From an uncultured Prevotellaceae bacterium (GTDB lineage: Bacteria; Bacteroidota; Bacteroidia; Bacteroidales; Bacteroidaceae), in the NCBI GenBank assembly GCA_947306845.1, contig CAMZHP010000201.1, forward strand, positions 1 to 6,359: 6,359 bases of DNA. Reading direction: 5' to 3'. The notes below the pieces were generated by a model, which did no database searches, was not told the origin of the DNA, and was given only the letters and a program-made list of their open reading frames with translations. A program made the position numbers and the translations under genes. Shown here piece by piece: positions 1 to 6,359 of the stretch (the stretch's first letter is position 1; every line of letters begins with the position of its first letter).

Positions 1-248
1 GTGATGGAGGTTATTCTGGAATTATTCAAAGCATCAGATCCTATGCGCGTCACGCTGTAGGTATCATCCTCATAGACTACCGTTTCTGGGATGGTAATAT
101 TTCCAGTATAGGATCCACCACTGATGACCTCTGCCTGTTTTGTCTTTTTTATCACACTATAATTGATGCCATCAATAGTGACATCTTCTGCCATCATGGC
201 TATCGGGATGAAGGTCATGAGCAATAAGAAGAATAGTTTTTGTTTCAT
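1..248 (-). CDS. Secreted BspA-like leucine-rich repeat protein, N-terminal part (cut by window edge)
   Basis: This reading frame starts at the ATG at 248-246 and runs off the left edge of the window after 82 codons without a stop, so only its N-terminus is visible. The protein opens with a clear signal peptide: MKQK, then a hydrophobic core (LFFLLLMTFIPIAM), and a likely cleavage after MMA, before EDVTIDG. The next stretch has the usual opening of BspA-type surface proteins: a short beta-rich lead-in (INYSVIKKTKQAEV), then GSYTGNITIPETV and YSVTRIGSDAL, which is the first LRR_5 unit. Proteins of this family are exported and often act in adhesion or substrate and host contact; that role is inferred from the family. 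The start lies 46 bp downstream of the end of the frameshifted LRR gene on the same strand, so the two are probably co-transcribed. No Bacteroidota-type promoter was found in the gap. The class is fairly certain; length, domain count and C-terminal anchor or sorting signal cannot be seen. Confidence 0.85.
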   Translation of the reverse strand, partial: MKQKLFFLLLMTFIPIAMMAEDVTIDGINYSVIKKTKQAEVISGGSYTGNITIPETVVYEDDTYSVTRIGSDALNNSRITSI

Positions 249-294: not shown

Positions 295-621
295 TTAGTT
301 CCAACGCCCCCAACTGTCTGTATCTTCTTTCAACTGCACTCTGTAACCATCCTTGACTAGTTTACTGATTAGGGATGTAAATGTTTTGAATCAGTCATGC
401 TAAAAACCTGACTCATATACTTAATATTCCTAATTGATTCGTGAAGAATGACATTCTGCAATGAAGTGCATCCTTTGAAAGCGTATGCACCGATAACTTC
501 CACTGACTCAGGAATGATGACTTCTACGAGATCAGTACAGTCTTCAAAAGCATAACTATCAATTTTTTTTTGTTCCTTCTGGAATGTGGCAAACACCATT
601 TTTGATTTCAAAGTCTGGCAT
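295..621 (-). pseudogene. Short leucine-rich repeat (LRR_5/BspA) protein with two compensating frameshifts
   Basis: Three frames on the minus strand join into one sensible 108-aa protein. The ATG at 621-619 opens MPDFEIKNGVCHIPEGTKK, then hits TGA at 561-559 directly after a run of nine A (plus-strand T 563-571). Shifting frame by one at that run continues into KIDSYAFEDCTDLVEVIIP and a second unit with IGAYAFKGCTSL, which are textbook LRR_5 repeats. This frame stops at 371-369. A second shift, in the interval TTCAAAACATTTACATCCC (about 390-372), returns to the original frame and gives a tail ending GYRVQLKEDTDSWGRWN and TAA at 297-295. No signal peptide is seen, so the product would be cytoplasmic. 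The tail is not LRR-like and I do not recognise it. The gene sits 58 bp after the nuclease gene and 46 bp before the secreted BspA gene. It may be a decayed gene, a phase-variable gene, or a base-calling artefact at the homopolymer. Calling only the middle frame (611-369, from a TTG) would miss both ends. Confidence 0.7.
563..571 (-). repeat. A9 homopolymer at the first frameshift of the LRR gene
   Basis: Nine consecutive A on the coding (minus) strand lie at the exact point where the LRR reading frame breaks. Eight A would join IPEGTKK to IDSYAFEDC in frame. Runs of this length are prone to polymerase slippage during replication or transcription, and to basecalling errors. Confidence 0.8.
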
Positions 622-679
622 AGTACTATTAACGATTCACCTGTTCATCGTGAGGTTCTAATAATTTTAACTTACCATA

Positions 680-1789
680 TTATAACTCAGATGTTTTACG
701 AGCTTTCAGGATTTTTTTGAGGGTCGTGTATCTCTGCCTTTGTGTAAAGGCGCAACGTTTCCCATTTTTGTCCACAGAGTCATTGACAATGCCATTGCCA
801 TCGAAGATATGTATTAATTTCAAGCGGAAGAATTCCCGCTCTTTGTTGCTATCATTAATATAATTAAGATCATAAATTTGGAAATAATCTGGGTCTATTC
901 CCCATTTCTTATCTCTCAAATCCAATACTCTTTCCTCTTTGAAGATGATCTCGAAAAGATACTTGATGCGGTTGTCATAATAGAATGCCAAATATTTTGT
1001 GGGTAAGAAAAAGCGGTTAGCCTGACAAGCATAGAAATCAAACCTTATAGCAACTTTCTCACCCCTTCTTCCGCCGACTATCAGCACGTCTTCATCTTCA
1101 TCAGTGTTCTCCTCAGATGCCTTACTCTTTTGGACATTTGATTCTTTGGAAATATCTACTTTGGCAATTTTTTCCTTGGCTATTTTTTCTGTTTCTTCTT
1201 TTTCTTTCTCAAATTCTTTTGCTTTGCTGCCAAATTGACCTATTCTGAGTTTATCTATGAGTTTGATGAACTCCTTTATCAAAAAGATGAGTATTTGGTC
1301 ATCAATCTCCGAAAGGTAATCATTCAGCAATTGGGTAATGTCATCCCAATTAAGCCAAAAGATATCTGGTTCCAATTCCTTGGGTTTCTGAGAGTCTGGA
1401 GTAATGTAAAGAATGTATTCATCGTCATTCTGAGATACCAGTTTCCGATATTGGGCAAGTTGATCAAGATTATGCTGCAAATTGGTGGAGAATGGTGCAA
1501 TTTTGGCCTCAATGACAATCTTATATGTACAATCGCGAATAATCAGGCCATCAGCCACAGTGCCTTTCTTGCCGTCCAATGACACCTGAGTCAGAATGTC
1601 GGGCTCGTTTTTCTTCACTTCTCCACCAAATTTTTCTATCAACTTGTCAATCAAGTGGAGAATTCTCAGCAGGGCACACATTACACGGTTTTCACCTTGG
1701 TTATAATCACCAAATATTGAATGGTCATCAATTTGATGGCTACTAGTTGTAATGTCTTTAAGTGTAATTAAATTGAATTGGTTAGCCAT
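680..1789 (-). CDS. PD-(D/E)XK nuclease-like protein with charged linker and unknown C-terminal domain
   Basis: This 369-aa protein begins at the ATG at 1789-1787. Residues 25-180 look like a PD-(D/E)XK endonuclease fold: an early helix with E33 (QGENRVMCALL), a strand with D80 (TVADGLII), then the E94-A95-K96 signature in KIVIEAKIA, followed by a helix with Q110 and Y114 (LDQLAQYRKL), an arrangement common in restriction-type nucleases. A Lys/Glu-rich, probably coiled-coil or disordered linker (about 188-233) contains an acidic run (ENTDEDEDV). The last 130 residues (about 240-369) form a second domain with NRFFLPTKYLAFYYDNRIKY that I cannot assign. There is no signal peptide or membrane segment, so it is cytoplasmic. 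The expected activity is metal-dependent DNA or RNA cleavage, with the C-terminal part possibly sensing a ligand or target; both are inferences. The gene is AT-rich, unlike the kinase operon, which fits acquisition by transfer. A stand-alone defence nuclease is possible, but no methyltransferase or partner is seen. Confidence 0.7.
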   Translation of the reverse strand: MANQFNLITLKDITTSSHQIDDHSIFGDYNQGENRVMCALLRILHLIDKLIEKFGGEVKKNEPDILTQVSLDGKKGTVADGLIIRDCTYKIVIEAKIAPFSTNLQHNLDQLAQYRKLVSQNDDEYILYITPDSQKPKELEPDIFWLNWDDITQLLNDYLSEIDDQILIFLIKEFIKLIDKLRIGQFGSKAKEFEKEKEETEKIAKEKIAKVDISKESNVQKSKASEENTDEDEDVLIVGGRRGEKVAIRFDFYACQANRFFLPTKYLAFYYDNRIKYLFEIIFKEERVLDLRDKKWGIDPDYFQIYDLNYINDSNKEREFFRLKLIHIFDGNGIVNDSVDKNGKRCAFTQRQRYTTLKKILKARKTSEL

Positions 1790-2270: not shown

Positions 2271-2279
2271 TTATTGAAA

Positions 2280-2330
2280 GTAGTTAAGTAGTATAAGTAG
2301 TTAAAGAAGTTAAGTAGTTAAAGAAGTTAA
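2280..2330. repeat. Three tandem 17-bp units (GTAGTTAAAGAAGTTAA family)
   Basis: The second and third units (2297-2313 and 2314-2330) are identical copies of GTAGTTAAAGAAGTTAA. The first (2280-2296, GTAGTTAAGTAGTATAA) is a diverged copy of the same length. The same motif reappears beyond the far end of the kinase operon at 6094-6119. Nothing indicates a protein-binding role, but regularly spaced direct repeats of this kind can act as iterons or regulator sites. Confidence 0.85.
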
Positions 2331-2391
2331 GCTATATGATTCGCGTGTCGTCTTCATTCGACCAAAGCAATCCCTCCAAGCAACAAAAGGT

Positions 2392-2467
2392 GCTGGTTTT
2401 ATTGTCTAATCTTTGTGCCTCTGTACCTTTGTGTTGAGAAAAATGAATCAAAATCTCCGTCTCCGTG
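2392..2467. repeat. Dispersed direct repeat, copy 1
   Basis: This copy starts with GCTGGTTTTATTGTCTAA and ends in AATCAAAATCTCCGT plus a few bases. Copy 2 lies at 2583-2683. The shared blocks are the opening 18 bp (one mismatch), a middle block CTCTGTACCTTTGTGTTGAG, and the closing block with GAATCAAAATCTCCGT. The copies differ by an insertion of about 25 bp between the first two blocks of copy 2. Confidence 0.8.
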
Positions 2468-2500
2468 ATTCATAAAAAAACAATTCATGAATAATTCATG

Positions 2501-2520
2501 GTCATTCGTGGTCATTCGTG
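2501..2520. repeat. Perfect tandem duplication of GTCATTCGTG
   Basis: Two identical 10-bp units lie side by side, preceded by related fragments (ATTCATGA, AATTCATG). It sits between the two copies of the larger direct repeat. Confidence 0.85.
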
Positions 2521-2567
2521 TTAGAAATATTCAAACATGTAATTTCCATGTAATTATACATTAATTT

Positions 2568-2582
2568 GACCGCTCTGCGGTC
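2568..2582. repeat. Short perfect hairpin at the edge of direct-repeat copy 2
   Basis: GACCGC-TCT-GCGGTC forms a 6-bp GC-rich stem with a three-base loop. It directly abuts the start of the second direct-repeat copy at 2583. No T-run follows, so it is unlikely to terminate transcription on the plus strand. Confidence 0.6.
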
Positions 2583-2683
2583 GCTGGTTTTATGGTCTAA
2601 GGAATATAGGAATAAAGGAATAAAATCTCTGTATCTCTGTACCTTTGTGTTGAGAAAAACGAATCAAAATCTCCGTCCCCTGA
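2583..2683. repeat. Dispersed direct repeat, copy 2
   Basis: This is the partner of 2392-2467. It opens with GCTGGTTTTATGGTCTAA and contains CTCTGTACCTTTGTGTTGAG and GAATCAAAATCTCCGT. Between the first two shared blocks it carries an extra AT-rich stretch with two GGAATA and GGAATAA motifs. No open reading frame in either copy looks coding. Confidence 0.8.
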
Positions 2684-2690
2684 TACAAAG

Positions 2691-2778
2691 GAAGTCGCCT
2701 TCGGCGAGAACCAATGGTCGCTGGCCGAAGGGAAAAGTAATGCAAATCCCCTCCAACTGCGAAGCTGAAGGCGATTTC
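2691..2778. repeat. Inverted-repeat unit with hairpin, upstream copy (family also at 5938-5985)
   Basis: GAAGTCGCCTTC at 2691-2702 is matched by its reverse complement with one mismatch at 2767-2778, bounding an 88-bp unit. Its left arm also forms a local hairpin (TCGCC-TTC-GGCGA, 2695-2707). The sequence from 2695 for about 26 bp differs at three positions from 5942 onward, downstream of the kinase gene. The unit lies just upstream of the operon promoter. Confidence 0.7.
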
Positions 2779-2819
2779 TTTTACTATAGGAGTGGAGATT
2801 GTTAGATTGTCTTGGTATT

Positions 2820-2851
2820 TTTGATTGTTTTGATTGTTTTTTGTATTTTTG
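2820..2851 (+). promoter_or_regulatory. Bacteroidota-type promoter of the kinase operon
   Basis: TTTG at 2820-2823, a 20-bp spacer, and TATTTTTG at 2844-2851 match the -33/-7 consensus (TTTG, 19-21 bp, TAnnTTTG) for the main sigma factor of this phylum. Transcription would begin near 2857, leaving a leader of about 32 nt before the ATG at 2889. The spacer contains repeated GATTGTTT, which might be a regulator site or simply low complexity. This promoter decides the start of the first gene, because the open frame upstream of 2889 overlaps it. Confidence 0.7.
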
Positions 2852-2888
2852 CGGTCGGAAACGAAGGATTCATTATTATCATACGCCT

Positions 2889-3488
2889 ATGCGACCTATC
2901 AACGAGAACTCTGGAAGAGAGACGCGGCTGTACGAACTGCTCCGCCAGGCGACGGAGACAGTCATGAAGAAGAAGATGCAAAAACCCGCAGACTTCGACT
3001 TGCTGCATGAGAAAGTCTTCGAGCGCACCCGCGTGATGATCAGTTCGTCCACCCTGAAACGTTTCTGGGGGTACATGCAGAGCGACCACTCACCCAGCAT
3101 CCAGACCCTCGACACGCTGGCCAAGTTCTGCGGCTACACGGATTTCGGGGCTTTTGGCCAAAAGCCTTTCAATAAAGAGGAGATGCCGAGTTGTCCCCTG
3201 TTGGGCAACCACATCGATGTCGCCGAGAATCTGGAAGTCGGTGATGAAGTCACACTCTATTGGTTGCCCGACCGCACCTGCCACCTCCGCTATGAGGGCA
3301 ACACACAGTTTGTGGTGACCTCTTCGGAGAACACCCGCCTCCGCCAGGGCGACACGTTCAGGTGCAACGTCATCATCGAGGGCGAGCCGCTCTATCTCAA
3401 CCACCTCGTACAGGACGGCCGGCCGCCGGTCAATTATTCCTGCGGCCGACAGGGAGGCGTGCTGTTCAAAACCAACCGGCGTGACTGA
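2889..3488 (+). CDS. HTH-like N-terminal plus beta-rich C-terminal domain protein, partner of the receptor kinase
   Basis: This gene encodes 199 aa. I chose the ATG at 2889 because the frame upstream (to 2799) overlaps the promoter and would add a Cys/Phe-rich stretch of no protein-like character. Residues 10-90 are mostly helical and carry the motif ISSSTLKRFWGY (51-62), then PSIQTLDTLAKFCGYTDFGAF (69-89). I know this pattern from many Bacteroidota proteins, where a conserved Ser/Thr-x-x-T-L-K-R-x-W-G-Y segment precedes TLD.LA.F.GY.DF. It resembles a winged or HTH-type DNA-binding region, but DNA binding is unproven. Residues 104-195 form a beta-rich domain with VGDEVTLYWLPDRTC, SENTRLRQGDTF, EGEPLYL and a CGRQGG turn, function unknown. 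It has no signal peptide or membrane segment. Its TGA overlaps the next ATG (TGATG), so the two proteins are made together. It may be a transcription factor or substrate governed by the kinase; that is inference. Confidence 0.85.
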   Translation: MRPINENSGRETRLYELLRQATETVMKKKMQKPADFDLLHEKVFERTRVMISSSTLKRFWGYMQSDHSPSIQTLDTLAKFCGYTDFGAFGQKPFNKEEMPSCPLLGNHIDVAENLEVGDEVTLYWLPDRTCHLRYEGNTQFVVTSSENTRLRQGDTFRCNVIIEGEPLYLNHLVQDGRPPVNYSCGRQGGVLFKTNRRD

Positions 3489-5884
3489 TGGCAGAGCATA
3501 GCGAAGACATCTCCGGGTACCTGGGTTCCACCACAGATTTTGAGGGAGTCAGCAGCGACTTCACCGATGTGGAACCATTGTCCTCCCGAGGCTACTGCGA
3601 CCTGTATAAAGCGAAGCGCTACAGCCGGTGGTATCTGCTCAAATGCCTCAAACAAAACCTGACATCCGACCCCGCCTACCATGAGATGCTGCGCAAGGAG
3701 TTCAGCATCATGATGCGGTTGCAGCACAGCGGCGTGCTGCAAGCCAGCAGCATGGAGACGGTGTCCATCCCCGGCCGCGGGAAGGCTGTCTGCATCGTGG
3801 CAGAATGGATTGACGGGCGCACCCTCGGCGAATACCTGGCCGAGAAGCCCCCGCTGTCGGAACGCCGACGCCTGGCCGACGAGATGACCGACGCCCTCGC
3901 CTACATCCACTCGCAGCAGGTGGTGCATCGCGACCTGAAGCCGTCGAACATCATGGTGACCCACAACGGCAACTACGCCAAAATCATCGATTTCGGACTG
4001 GCCGACACCGACAGCCACGCCATCCTGAAACAACCGGCGGGCACCCTGCGGTATATGGCTCCCGAACAGATGCAGGCAACGGTGGCCGATGTGCGCAACG
4101 ACATCTACTCGTTCGGCATGGTGATGCAGGAGATGAACCTCGGCAGGGGCAACTACCAGCGTGTGGCCGAGCGGTGCCTGCGCCCCATCGAACAGCGGTA
4201 TCAGAACATGGACGCGCTGCTCGCTGACCTCCGCAACCGCACCAAGCAGCGACTGCTGTGGGCGGCCATGTTGCTCCTTGTGGCAGGCATCATCGCCGCC
4301 CTTGTCTTCCAAATCGACCGACTGCGCCAGCAAGCCCTGAGTCAGGCCCAGCACACGGCGGTGCTCAACCGCCAACTGCGCGTGCTCAACCATGAGATAC
4401 TGGATTTCGCAGACCCAGAGGCGGAGCGGCTGTGCCTGCTTCACTGGGACACCAATGGTGACGGCGAACTGACCTTTGAGGAGGCCGCCGCCGTCACCGA
4501 ACTGGGAAACGTGTTCACCCAGAACAAGATGCTGCGCTCATTTGAGGAACTGGAGCATTTCACGGGACTCACCGACATCAGCGCAGAGGCCTTCATGGGA
4601 TGCAGCAACCTACGGTCATTGAAAATCCCTGGAACGGTGCGCTTCTTCCGGCATGACGCCTTCCGCCAATCGGGATTGGAAACCGTCTCCTTCCCTGGGA
4701 CAGTGGCCGGCATCGGCGACCACATCCTCGATGACTGTCCCCAACTGGAGACCATCATCTTCGAGGCGAAACTGCCACAGTCGAACGTAGGCAGCAGACA
4801 TGTCAACAACTGTCCGAAACTCAGCACCATCTTTGCCGACAACGCGATGGTGGAACAAATCAACGATGGTACAAGGCTGTTGGCCTCCGGCTTTCAACCA
4901 GGCGACGAAAAGTTGCAACCAGAGGAGACAGAGCACATCATCCTGAGTCAGGCCTGGAGCCATGTCGTTCCCCTGATGACTGACCACATCCCGTTTGCCG
5001 ACCCCGAGGTGAAGACCGTCTGCATCAGACGATGGGACCGCGACGGCAACAAGGAACTGTCCATAGACGAGGCCATGGCGGTCAACACCATCGGCAAGGC
5101 TTTCTGCGGAAATACCCGAATCACTCATTTCGACGAACTGAAGTTCTTCACGGGCATCCAGACCATCGAGACCAGCGCCTTTGAGGGATGCGACCACCTG
5201 CAGTCCATCCGTCTTCCCTCCACCATCCGCCTCATCGACAGTTATGCCTTCTACGCCTGCAGGTCACTGACCGCCATCCAACTGCCAGACGATCTCGAGC
5301 AAGTGAACAGAGATGCGTTCATGCACTGCGACCTGCGCGAACTGTTCATCCCCGCCAAGACAACGTCGATTGCTACGAGAGCCTTCATTTGCAACGAGAA
5401 CCTGAGCCGGGTGGAGGTGAGCACAGCCAATCCGGTTTATGACAGCCGCGAAGACTGCAATGCCATCATCAAGACAGCCACCAACATGATGGTGACAGGA
5501 AGTCCGGTGGCCATCATCCCCCGGAGTGTCACGCGACTGTCCGACGAGGCCTTTGTGGGTTTCCACAGAGAGGACATCACCCTGCCCATCCAGATGACCC
5601 ACATAGGACGGTGGACCTTCTCCTGCTCCATACCCAAAATCTACTGCGAGGCTCCCACGCCCCCTTTTTACGAGGGAGAAGCCATATTATTCCTGAAGGA
5701 CCTCCAAGGCAATCCTGTCGTCATCTATGTGCCATTCGGTGCCCGCGAGGCCTACTGCCAAGCCAACGGATGGCGCGACTATGCCAGCACCATCCGGGAG
5801 TGCCCCATCGCCGTGCCCTTCTCTGTCCTCTATGAGATAGCGAAAATCATCCATCAAATGGACTTTCAAAATACAAGTCGTTGA
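3488..5884 (+). CDS. Receptor-type Ser/Thr protein kinase with EF-hand and BspA leucine-rich-repeat ectodomain
   Basis: This 798-aa protein has a cytoplasmic Hanks-type kinase domain at about 28-250: K52 in WYLLKCLK, helix-C E71, the catalytic loop HRDLKPSN (147-154), DFG (168-170), APE (191-193) and D205 in NDIYSFG. The glycine-rich loop is degenerate (LSSRGYCDLYKA), but all catalytic residues are present, so activity is likely. A basic run (RTKQR) precedes one membrane helix (about 257-274), placing the kinase inside and the rest outside. After a coiled-coil-like stretch (275-302) come two homologous units. Each has FADPE, an EF-hand loop (DTNGDGELTFEE 321-332; DRDGNKELSIDE 517-528), an F-x-x-L-x-x-FTG segment, and LRR_5 repeats (SAEAFMGCSNL, SAFEGCDHL and others). 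The C-terminal part has the BspA pattern NPVYDSRED and YVPFGAREAYCQANGW. No sorting domain is seen. It starts in the TGATG overlap without a Shine-Dalgarno sequence. The likely role is transmembrane signalling; ligand and substrate are unknown. Confidence 0.92.
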   Translation: MAEHSEDISGYLGSTTDFEGVSSDFTDVEPLSSRGYCDLYKAKRYSRWYLLKCLKQNLTSDPAYHEMLRKEFSIMMRLQHSGVLQASSMETVSIPGRGKAVCIVAEWIDGRTLGEYLAEKPPLSERRRLADEMTDALAYIHSQQVVHRDLKPSNIMVTHNGNYAKIIDFGLADTDSHAILKQPAGTLRYMAPEQMQATVADVRNDIYSFGMVMQEMNLGRGNYQRVAERCLRPIEQRYQNMDALLADLRNRTKQRLLWAAMLLLVAGIIAALVFQIDRLRQQALSQAQHTAVLNRQLRVLNHEILDFADPEAERLCLLHWDTNGDGELTFEEAAAVTELGNVFTQNKMLRSFEELEHFTGLTDISAEAFMGCSNLRSLKIPGTVRFFRHDAFRQSGLETVSFPGTVAGIGDHILDDCPQLETIIFEAKLPQSNVGSRHVNNCPKLSTIFADNAMVEQINDGTRLLASGFQPGDEKLQPEETEHIILSQAWSHVVPLMTDHIPFADPEVKTVCIRRWDRDGNKELSIDEAMAVNTIGKAFCGNTRITHFDELKFFTGIQTIETSAFEGCDHLQSIRLPSTIRLIDSYAFYACRSLTAIQLPDDLEQVNRDAFMHCDLRELFIPAKTTSIATRAFICNENLSRVEVSTANPVYDSREDCNAIIKTATNMMVTGSPVAIIPRSVTRLSDEAFVGFHREDITLPIQMTHIGRWTFSCSIPKIYCEAPTPPFYEGEAILFLKDLQGNPVVIYVPFGAREAYCQANGWRDYASTIRECPIAVPFSVLYEIAKIIHQMDFQNTSR
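4397..5422 (+). repeat. Internal duplication of the EF-hand plus LRR module inside the kinase gene
   Basis: Residues 304-450 and 500-645 align: both begin FADPE, continue through an acidic 12-residue calcium loop beginning W-D, an AVT/AVN segment, F-x-x-N-x-x-x-x-x-F-x-E-L-x-x-FTG, and an AF-x-GC-x-x-L repeat ending IPGTVR or LPSTIR. The second unit has more complete LRRs, while the first lost regularity after residue 390. A linker of about 50 residues (451-499) separates them. This is the kind of unit found in secreted BspA-like proteins, here placed behind a membrane helix and a kinase. Confidence 0.8.
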
Positions 5885-5937
5885 ATTCAACTTCCGCAAG
5901 TTGGGAGTAGTTAGTATCTGTTCAGCGAATATCTAAA

Positions 5938-6123: not shown

Positions 6124-6359
6124 TCACGAATTGTCGAATTATCGAATTTTTTGTGCTCACCAATTCTCAAATTACCTCCCTTCGGTCAGTGGGTCTTCGA
6201 CAAATCTCGCTAATTCGGGACTTTTATTTTCCTCACGAATTGTCGAATTGTCGAATTTTTTTGTGCTCACCAATTCGCCAATTCTCTAATTCGGGATTAT
6301 ATTTTTCTCACGAATTGTCGAATTATCGAATTATTTGGTGCTCACCAATTCTCAAATTC
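6124..6359. repeat. Three copies of an AT-rich direct repeat (TCACGAATTGTCGAATT family)
   Basis: Copies start at 6124, 6233 and 6308; the last runs off the right edge. Each has TCACGAATTGTCGAATT, a third CGAATT, a T-rich spacer and GTGCTCACCAATTC. Copies 2 and 3 are each preceded by CTAATTCGGGA and a T-rich tract, so the full unit is about 75-80 bp; the first interval is 109 bp. The left half is built of CGAATT motifs every 8 bp and the right half of AATTC motifs in opposite sense, so each unit can fold back on itself. No gene is present in this stretch. Confidence 0.85.

Follow-up and report, generated by a model that had tools for sequence, protein, structure and literature searches.

A Hanks-type kinase with a predicted periplasmic EF-hand/LRR sensor and an overlapping partner gene in Bacteroidales

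Main finding

We propose, with a probability of roughly 55%, that two overlapping genes in the window (the whole 6,359-nucleotide stretch of DNA analysed here) encode an inner-membrane two-gene system, in which a periplasmic LRR sensor kinase signals to a putative regulator made together with it. The initial annotation of 3488..5884 was right about the fusion of a kinase to a sensor module but did not mention the partner gene that overlaps it, and this gene gives the best hint of what the kinase does (Table 1). The parts themselves, a Hanks kinase, BspA LRRs and an EF loop, are already known. Among the matches listed from the open-licence literature (titles and beginnings of abstracts), none described a Bacteroidota Hanks kinase with an LRR ectodomain, or the kinase/partner pair.

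Table 1. Features of the partner gene and the kinase gene in the window
Feature	Position	Strand	Remarks
Partner gene	2889..3488	+	199 aa
Partner N-terminal domain	about residues 7-91	+	putative helix-turn-helix-like
Partner C-terminal beta domain	about residues 108-196	+	
TGATG, partner stop / kinase start	3486..3490	+	1-nt overlap, sequence
Kinase-TM-EF-LRR-EF-LRR receptor	3488..5884	+	ORF, 798 aa
Hanks-type kinase domain	3551..4246	+	residues 22-253; glycine loop degenerate; C-lobe shortened
Single transmembrane helix	4253..4309	+	residues 256-274; hydropathy
Helical stalk extending the membrane helix	4310..4393	+	residues 275-302; AlphaFold2 model
EF-hand-like loop 1	4448..4483	+	residues 321-332, DTNGDGELTFEE
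LRR_5 unit 1	4565..4837	+	about residues 360-450
EF-hand-like loop 2	5036..5071	+	residues 517-528, DRDGNKELSIDE
LRR_5 unit 2	5153..5647	+	about residues 556-720

Architecture of the kinase

The catalytic motifs K52, E71, HRD 147-149, DFG 168-170 and APE 191-193, all named in the initial annotation, are present, and the Pfam Pkinase profile scores 121 bits against a cut-off of 31.7. The GxGxxG glycine loop, which is usual in Hanks-type kinases and not strictly defining, is absent, the consensus there being LPSRGYCDL with a single glycine (G35, in 115 of 121 aligned sequences). The C-lobe appears short, because the aspartate of DxYSxG (205) and a later arginine (237) lie only 28-40 residues apart in the 121 sequences and because residues 22-253 of the model align with PknB 8-278. 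Helix G, a substrate-docking element, would presumably fall within this shortened stretch.

One membrane helix had been placed near residues 257-274, and the hydropathy profile bears this out: the 19-residue maximum (mean 2.77) lies at 256-274, the sole strongly hydrophobic stretch of the protein, and all 121 sequences have a hydrophobic helix, taken as a mean of at least 1.6 over 19 residues. Residues 241-300 form one continuous helix in the AlphaFold2 model. By hydropathy, no N-terminal secretion signal is seen and the N-terminus runs into the kinase. Lysines and arginines flanking the helix are more numerous on its N side in 93 sequences, equal in 17 and fewer in 11. These features are consistent with a catalytic domain that would lie in the cytoplasm and an ectodomain that would lie in the periplasm.

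The predicted pair of EF-hand/LRR_5 units is likewise recognisable, with EF-like loops starting at residues 321 and 517 and an LRR_5 score of 138.8 bits over three stretches (cut-off 27.7). The domain search thus placed Pkinase and LRR_5 above their Pfam cut-offs and EF-hand_1 below (17.4 versus 25.4 bits). PASTA repeats were absent in a Pfam scan up to E 1, and the NCBIfam PASTA-kinase model NF033483 scored 129.6 bits, under its cut-off of 450.

Conservation and distribution of the kinase family

A protein search returned 4620 proteins at E <= 0.001 among 7996 candidates scored, and residue conservation was counted over the best 120 (P0001-P0120) aligned with the window protein, 121 rows in all. 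Identity to the window kinase is 99% for P0001 and 45-58% for the rest of these best 120 of 4620. K52 is kept in 120 rows, one being gapped; E71, HRD and DFG are kept in all 121; and APE is kept in 115, the other six reading PPE. Conservation extends to the activation loop, where T174 is invariant, T186 is threonine in 120 rows and serine in one, and Y189 is kept in 120 of 121. The window protein belongs to a conserved family of predicted kinases.

Scanning a single genome for each species, we found 218 encoding stretches and kept the best 80 as loci. The kinase, helix and EF-LRR lie in one frame in 30 of the 34 best loci (L001-L034), so the fusion is not peculiar to one assembly. That it is an assembly artefact or a decayed gene has a negligible probability: four of the 34 loci are broken or cut (L031-L034) and L024 ends early, at 702 aa, with an in-frame stop, but the 30 one-frame loci include L011, which comes from a strain with a name, Xylanibacter ruminicola D31d, and the dN/dS given below is low, which refutes this explanation for practical purposes. 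The hosts of L001-L030 are assigned to Prevotella, Prevotellaceae, Bacteroidaceae or Bacteroidales, and several come from ruminant stomach compartments. Strong matches spanning the kinase and EF-LRR occur in at least 7 of 301 genomes of one family (G249, G088, G251, G004, G204, G065 and G115), a lower bound since three candidates per genome, with few exceptions, were scored; the match in G251 carries one in-frame stop, and that in G115 has a cut frame and looks chimeric.

Beyond L001-L034 most loci encode kinases that carry a different ectodomain and are about 380-470 aa long. Among 87 kinase frames, counted without the broken or cut L031-L034 and L070 (the last cut by its contig end), 34 carry EF and LRR, four LRR only, one EF only and 48 neither, as would be expected of a swappable sensor. 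Repeated independent gains of the sensor were considered and set aside. In a quick tree L116 and L117 lie apart from the clade formed by 31 EF-LRR rows (SH-aLRT 99), but a constraint that groups all 33 EF-LRR rows was not rejected (p-AU 0.46), and without L117 the constrained tree even scored better (p-AU 0.70); the kinase tree left out L115, whose kinase looks chimeric by eye, as well as L031-L034 and L070. We also discarded a virus-borne origin, a scan of viral contigs having given 32 pattern matches and no relatives.

Locus L009, in genome G001, holds a copy 98% identical to the window kinase. The two genes differ by 31 synonymous and 12 non-synonymous codons (dN 0.0085, dS 0.0616, dN/dS about 0.14); the ectodomain alone gives dN 0.0052 and dS 0.0616, and the membrane/stalk part has three non-synonymous differences and no synonymous ones. 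Judged by this comparison, the kinase gene is under purifying selection, strongly so in the ectodomain. Both genes lie in a block, 2759-5911, that has 97.5% identity to L009; a second stretch, 1826-2275, matches it at 94.9%, 2493-2685 matches elsewhere in L009, and positions 1-1825 have no match there.

A BspA-type gene lies near the kinase in both the window and L009. Even so, we abandoned the idea that the ligand comes from a neighbouring gene: frames with LRR or EF units stand beside 13 of 31 EF-LRR kinases and 13 of 42 kinases that have neither EF nor LRR, no clear excess in a comparison where flank lengths vary between loci.

The partner gene

The partner overlaps the kinase gene by a TGATG that may couple the translation of the two. 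Of 81 loci (the window and the best 80 of 218, near-copies left in), 67 have a relative of the partner directly next to the kinase and on its strand, upstream in 46 and downstream in 21; 13 loci have no adjoining partner, and in one the contig ends too early. When just the 31 EF-LRR kinases are counted, the partner is upstream in 20, downstream in two and in neither place in eight, with one locus cut. The genomes of 11 of the 13 loci without an adjoining partner hold a partner-profile match elsewhere, where it may serve another kinase, and in one of these 11 genomes, G603, the match is split over two frames.

The order of the two genes changed at least four times on a quick kinase tree, and the partner adjoins both divergent EF-LRR kinases, being divergently oriented at L171 and convergently at L172 (genomes G204 and G065). 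Linkage in both orders and at divergent kinases suggests that the pair tends to stay together through rearrangements. Kinase and partner distances are also correlated (r 0.70, n 62, 0 of 2000 permutations), with species kinship not removed.

With the partner profile, matches were obtained in 83 of 201 family genomes and in 25 of 296 phylum genomes; in many of them just the N-terminal domain is matched. In an alignment of 40 partners, S52, T55 and S101 are present in all 40, which makes them candidate phosphorylation sites. No Pfam family, HTH included, is above cut-off in the partner, its best match among PDB sequences has E 0.16, and its predicted structure has no Foldseek match at E <= 0.001. 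The lack of a Pfam HTH, together with the occurrence of the N-terminal domain at the front of ATPase-like frames from the phylum sample (L175-L178), leaves some room for reading this domain as a protein-protein adaptor in a membrane signalling or conflict module with no direct action on transcription; we judge this rather unlikely and favour a putative DNA-binding role. A PP2C-type phosphatase domain is encoded in all three genomes searched (G001, G003 and G004), the match in G001 being a low one, at 30 bits (cut-off 24).

Fusions of the partner-type domain to the same sensor

A genome search with the partner profile also gave matches, by the N-terminal domain only, inside longer frames. In L161-L164, frames of 406-451 aa, the partner-type N-terminal domain is followed by one membrane helix, beginning at residue 124-130, then by an EF unit and LRR units. 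A homologue search with L161 residues 1-150, that is, the domain and the membrane helix, gave 151 homologues; in each of the best 120 a membrane helix comes after the domain, a count that the choice of query favours. EF and LRR follow the helix in 21 of these 120 and neither follows in 99, which carry PF18491 according to precomputed annotation. Relatives of this type thus have the membrane helix in the same protein as the putative HTH domain.

That a domain linked to the kinase in one setting is joined in another to the same EF-LRR supports EF-LRR as a swappable input module and the kinase-partner pair as a two-protein version of a one-protein receptor. Taken with the gene linkage, the fusions suggest one sensor plugged into either a kinase or a putative helix-turn-helix domain. 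We therefore put forward, tentatively and at somewhat less than even odds, that Bacteroidales use one exchangeable periplasmic EF-LRR sensor whose output is either a DNA-binding domain directly or a Hanks kinase relaying to a soluble partner that carries this same DNA-binding domain. If the partner-type domain binds DNA, its side of the membrane must be cytoplasmic and EF-LRR periplasmic.

The fusions also bear on what the ectodomain does. Because 48 of the 87 sister-kinase frames have neither EF nor LRR, the sensor is not needed for their common function, and the LRR solenoid could instead be an anchor that constantly holds an envelope component and localises a kinase whose activity is set from the cytoplasm. 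We regard such a device as improbable, since the ectodomain appears to be under strong purifying selection and is common to the HTH-TM proteins, for which it is the most plausible input.

The initial annotation had further taken the ectodomain for a surface-recognition module joined to a kinase. The joining of a BspA-type module stands, the module also being present in large BspA-type frames of G001; the surface location probably does not, because a one-pass inner-membrane protein of a Gram-negative bacterium would expose its sensor to the periplasm. For the suggested calcium-dependent signal, support stops at the conserved loops. With a canonical EF loop defined as 12 residues having D at 1, D/N/S at 3, D/N/S/G at 5 and E/D at 12, loop 1 is canonical in 120 of 121 rows (one gapped) and loop 2 in all 121, as would suit a kinase switched by periplasmic calcium in both loops. 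However, the LRR units of a BspA-type frame in L009 (1139 aa, cut) and of the HTH-TM-EF-LRR proteins are likewise preceded by such EF units, which therefore seem to belong to the LRR unit itself; the Pfam EF-hand score is below cut-off; and periplasmic calcium is usually high. A calcium sensor is thus of low probability, and a structural calcium site, the simpler reading given that shared EF unit, is more likely than a calcium switch.

Proposed mechanism and comparison with known systems

In the two-gene system that we propose, the kinase would sit with its N-terminus inside and its catalytic domain in the cytoplasm, and a single helix would cross the membrane and continue as a stalk carrying, on the periplasmic side, two BspA-type LRR units with EF caps. 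Structural calcium in the EF loops would make the beginning of each LRR unit more rigid. The LRR solenoid may bind a ligand that reaches the periplasm, whether peptide, glycan or protein, and binding could alter the pairing of the stalk helices, turning kinase autophosphorylation on or off. The kinase would then phosphorylate its co-translated 199-aa partner, whose helix-turn-helix-like domain may, once phosphorylated, act differently on DNA and shift gene expression.

The window kinase is neither a PASTA kinase nor a plant-type receptor kinase. PASTA-type kinases (PknB, StkP and Stk1) have an N-terminal cytoplasmic kinase, one membrane helix and C-terminal extracytoplasmic repeats; they share the layout of the window kinase and are among its nearest solved kinases, but the window kinase has no PASTA repeats and has an LRR sensor and a partner gene. 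It is chiefly in plants that LRR receptor kinases are known, with the order signal peptide, LRR, TM and kinase. The plant LRR receptor-like kinases also combine an LRR sensor, one membrane helix and a Hanks-type kinase, whereas the window kinase has the reversed order, BspA-type LRR_5 repeats, EF loops and a two-gene layout; the likeness is presumably convergent. With the secreted LRR proteins of BspA type the window kinase shares LRR_5 repeats and the EF-LRR unit, differing in its TM-joined kinase and in having no visible N-terminal hydrophobic signal; the main text of a paper on the BspA-like family does not contain the word 'kinase' (PMC2843621).

A functional parallel comes from Xanthomonas citri, where the sigma factor EcfK is phosphorylated by its cognate transmembrane Hanks kinase PknS, whose periplasmic part consists of TPRs, as described in an excerpt of PMC13147305. 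Both systems have a transmembrane Hanks kinase with periplasmic repeats; in the excerpted account phosphorylation of a cognate transcription factor is demonstrated for PknS, whose system uses TPRs and a sigma factor, whereas the window pair, for which such phosphorylation is a prediction, has EF-LRR and a putative HTH-barrel partner (PMC13147305). PknS-EcfK, as that excerpt presents it, thus offers a precedent for phosphorylation of a partner by such a kinase (PMC13147305). The one-protein fusions L161-L164 resemble instead the transmembrane regulators of the ToxR/CadC kind in placing a putative HTH at the N-terminus, followed by one TM and then a sensor, as far as an excerpt of PMC10269533 describes these. 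The window differs from the ToxR/CadC kind of that excerpt in dividing receptor and putative regulator between two proteins, in carrying a kinase on the receptor, and in a partner whose putative HTH is not recognised by Pfam (PMC10269533).

Significance

If the exchangeable-sensor proposal is true, the window pair would correspond to a two-component system built on a Ser/Thr kinase and an LRR receptor, and would represent a bacterial pathway from receptor kinase to transcription factor that evolved independently of plants. The presence of a member in the named strain Xylanibacter ruminicola D31d means that the family may be testable. With its linked candidate substrate and its naturally occurring one-protein fusions, the family opens the way to asking which signals gut bacteria perceive through LRR sensors and how genes of Bacteroidota might be controlled by Ser/Thr phosphorylation.

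Related kinases and partner-type domains

The kinases of loci L036-L080, which belong to the best 80 of 218 stretches, are of a short form, common among the related kinases, whose ectodomain spans very roughly 100-200 residues. A Pfam scan of 10 short-form kinase frames yielded no match above cut-off beyond the kinase domain. A relative of the partner, the 199-aa protein with a putative helix-turn-helix-like N-terminal domain, is encoded downstream of 19 of the 42 kinases with neither EF nor LRR.

We also encountered the partner-type N-terminal domain in other architectures. It is followed by a membrane helix and Pfam PF18491 ('SRA') in L167 and in 99 proteins among the 120 listed of 151 homologues of L161 residues 1-150 (domain plus membrane helix), which make up a large family. 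At L169, two adjacent frames each combine it with a membrane helix and LRR, and in four loci from other Bacteroidota genomes (L175-L178) it begins large ATPase-like frames, cut by the fetched stretch, whose P-loop-like motif was judged by eye.

The EF-LRR kinase of L115, compared by eye, resembles that of L117 in its N-terminal kinase half and the main EF-LRR clade in its second half, and may thus be a recombinant or an assembly chimera.

Sequences flanking the kinase gene

Features around the kinase and partner genes
Feature	Window position	Strand	Remarks
Beginning of apparent BspA-type secreted protein	1-248	-	signal-like N-terminus, by eye; at window edge
LRR_5 remnant, broken	372-644	-	adjoins apparent BspA-type gene start
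369-aa protein gene	680-1789	-	without Pfam match above cut-off
Tandem repeat AAGTAGTT	2278-2331		intergenic
57-nt repeat pair, 216 nt apart	2408-2680		intergenic
75-nt repeat unit, about two copies	6124-6359		intergenic

Copies of window positions 2493-2685 lie directly behind the kinase in L009, the locus with the 98%-identical kinase copy. Pfam scans gave no match for the 82 residues of the apparent BspA-type protein and no family above cut-off for the 369-aa protein. In L009 the neighbour is an EF-LRR frame of 1139 aa (cut). L009 also encodes, at a similar position, a 304-aa relative of the 369-aa protein with 34% identity over 356 columns, and this neighbour is therefore strongly divergent between close relatives.
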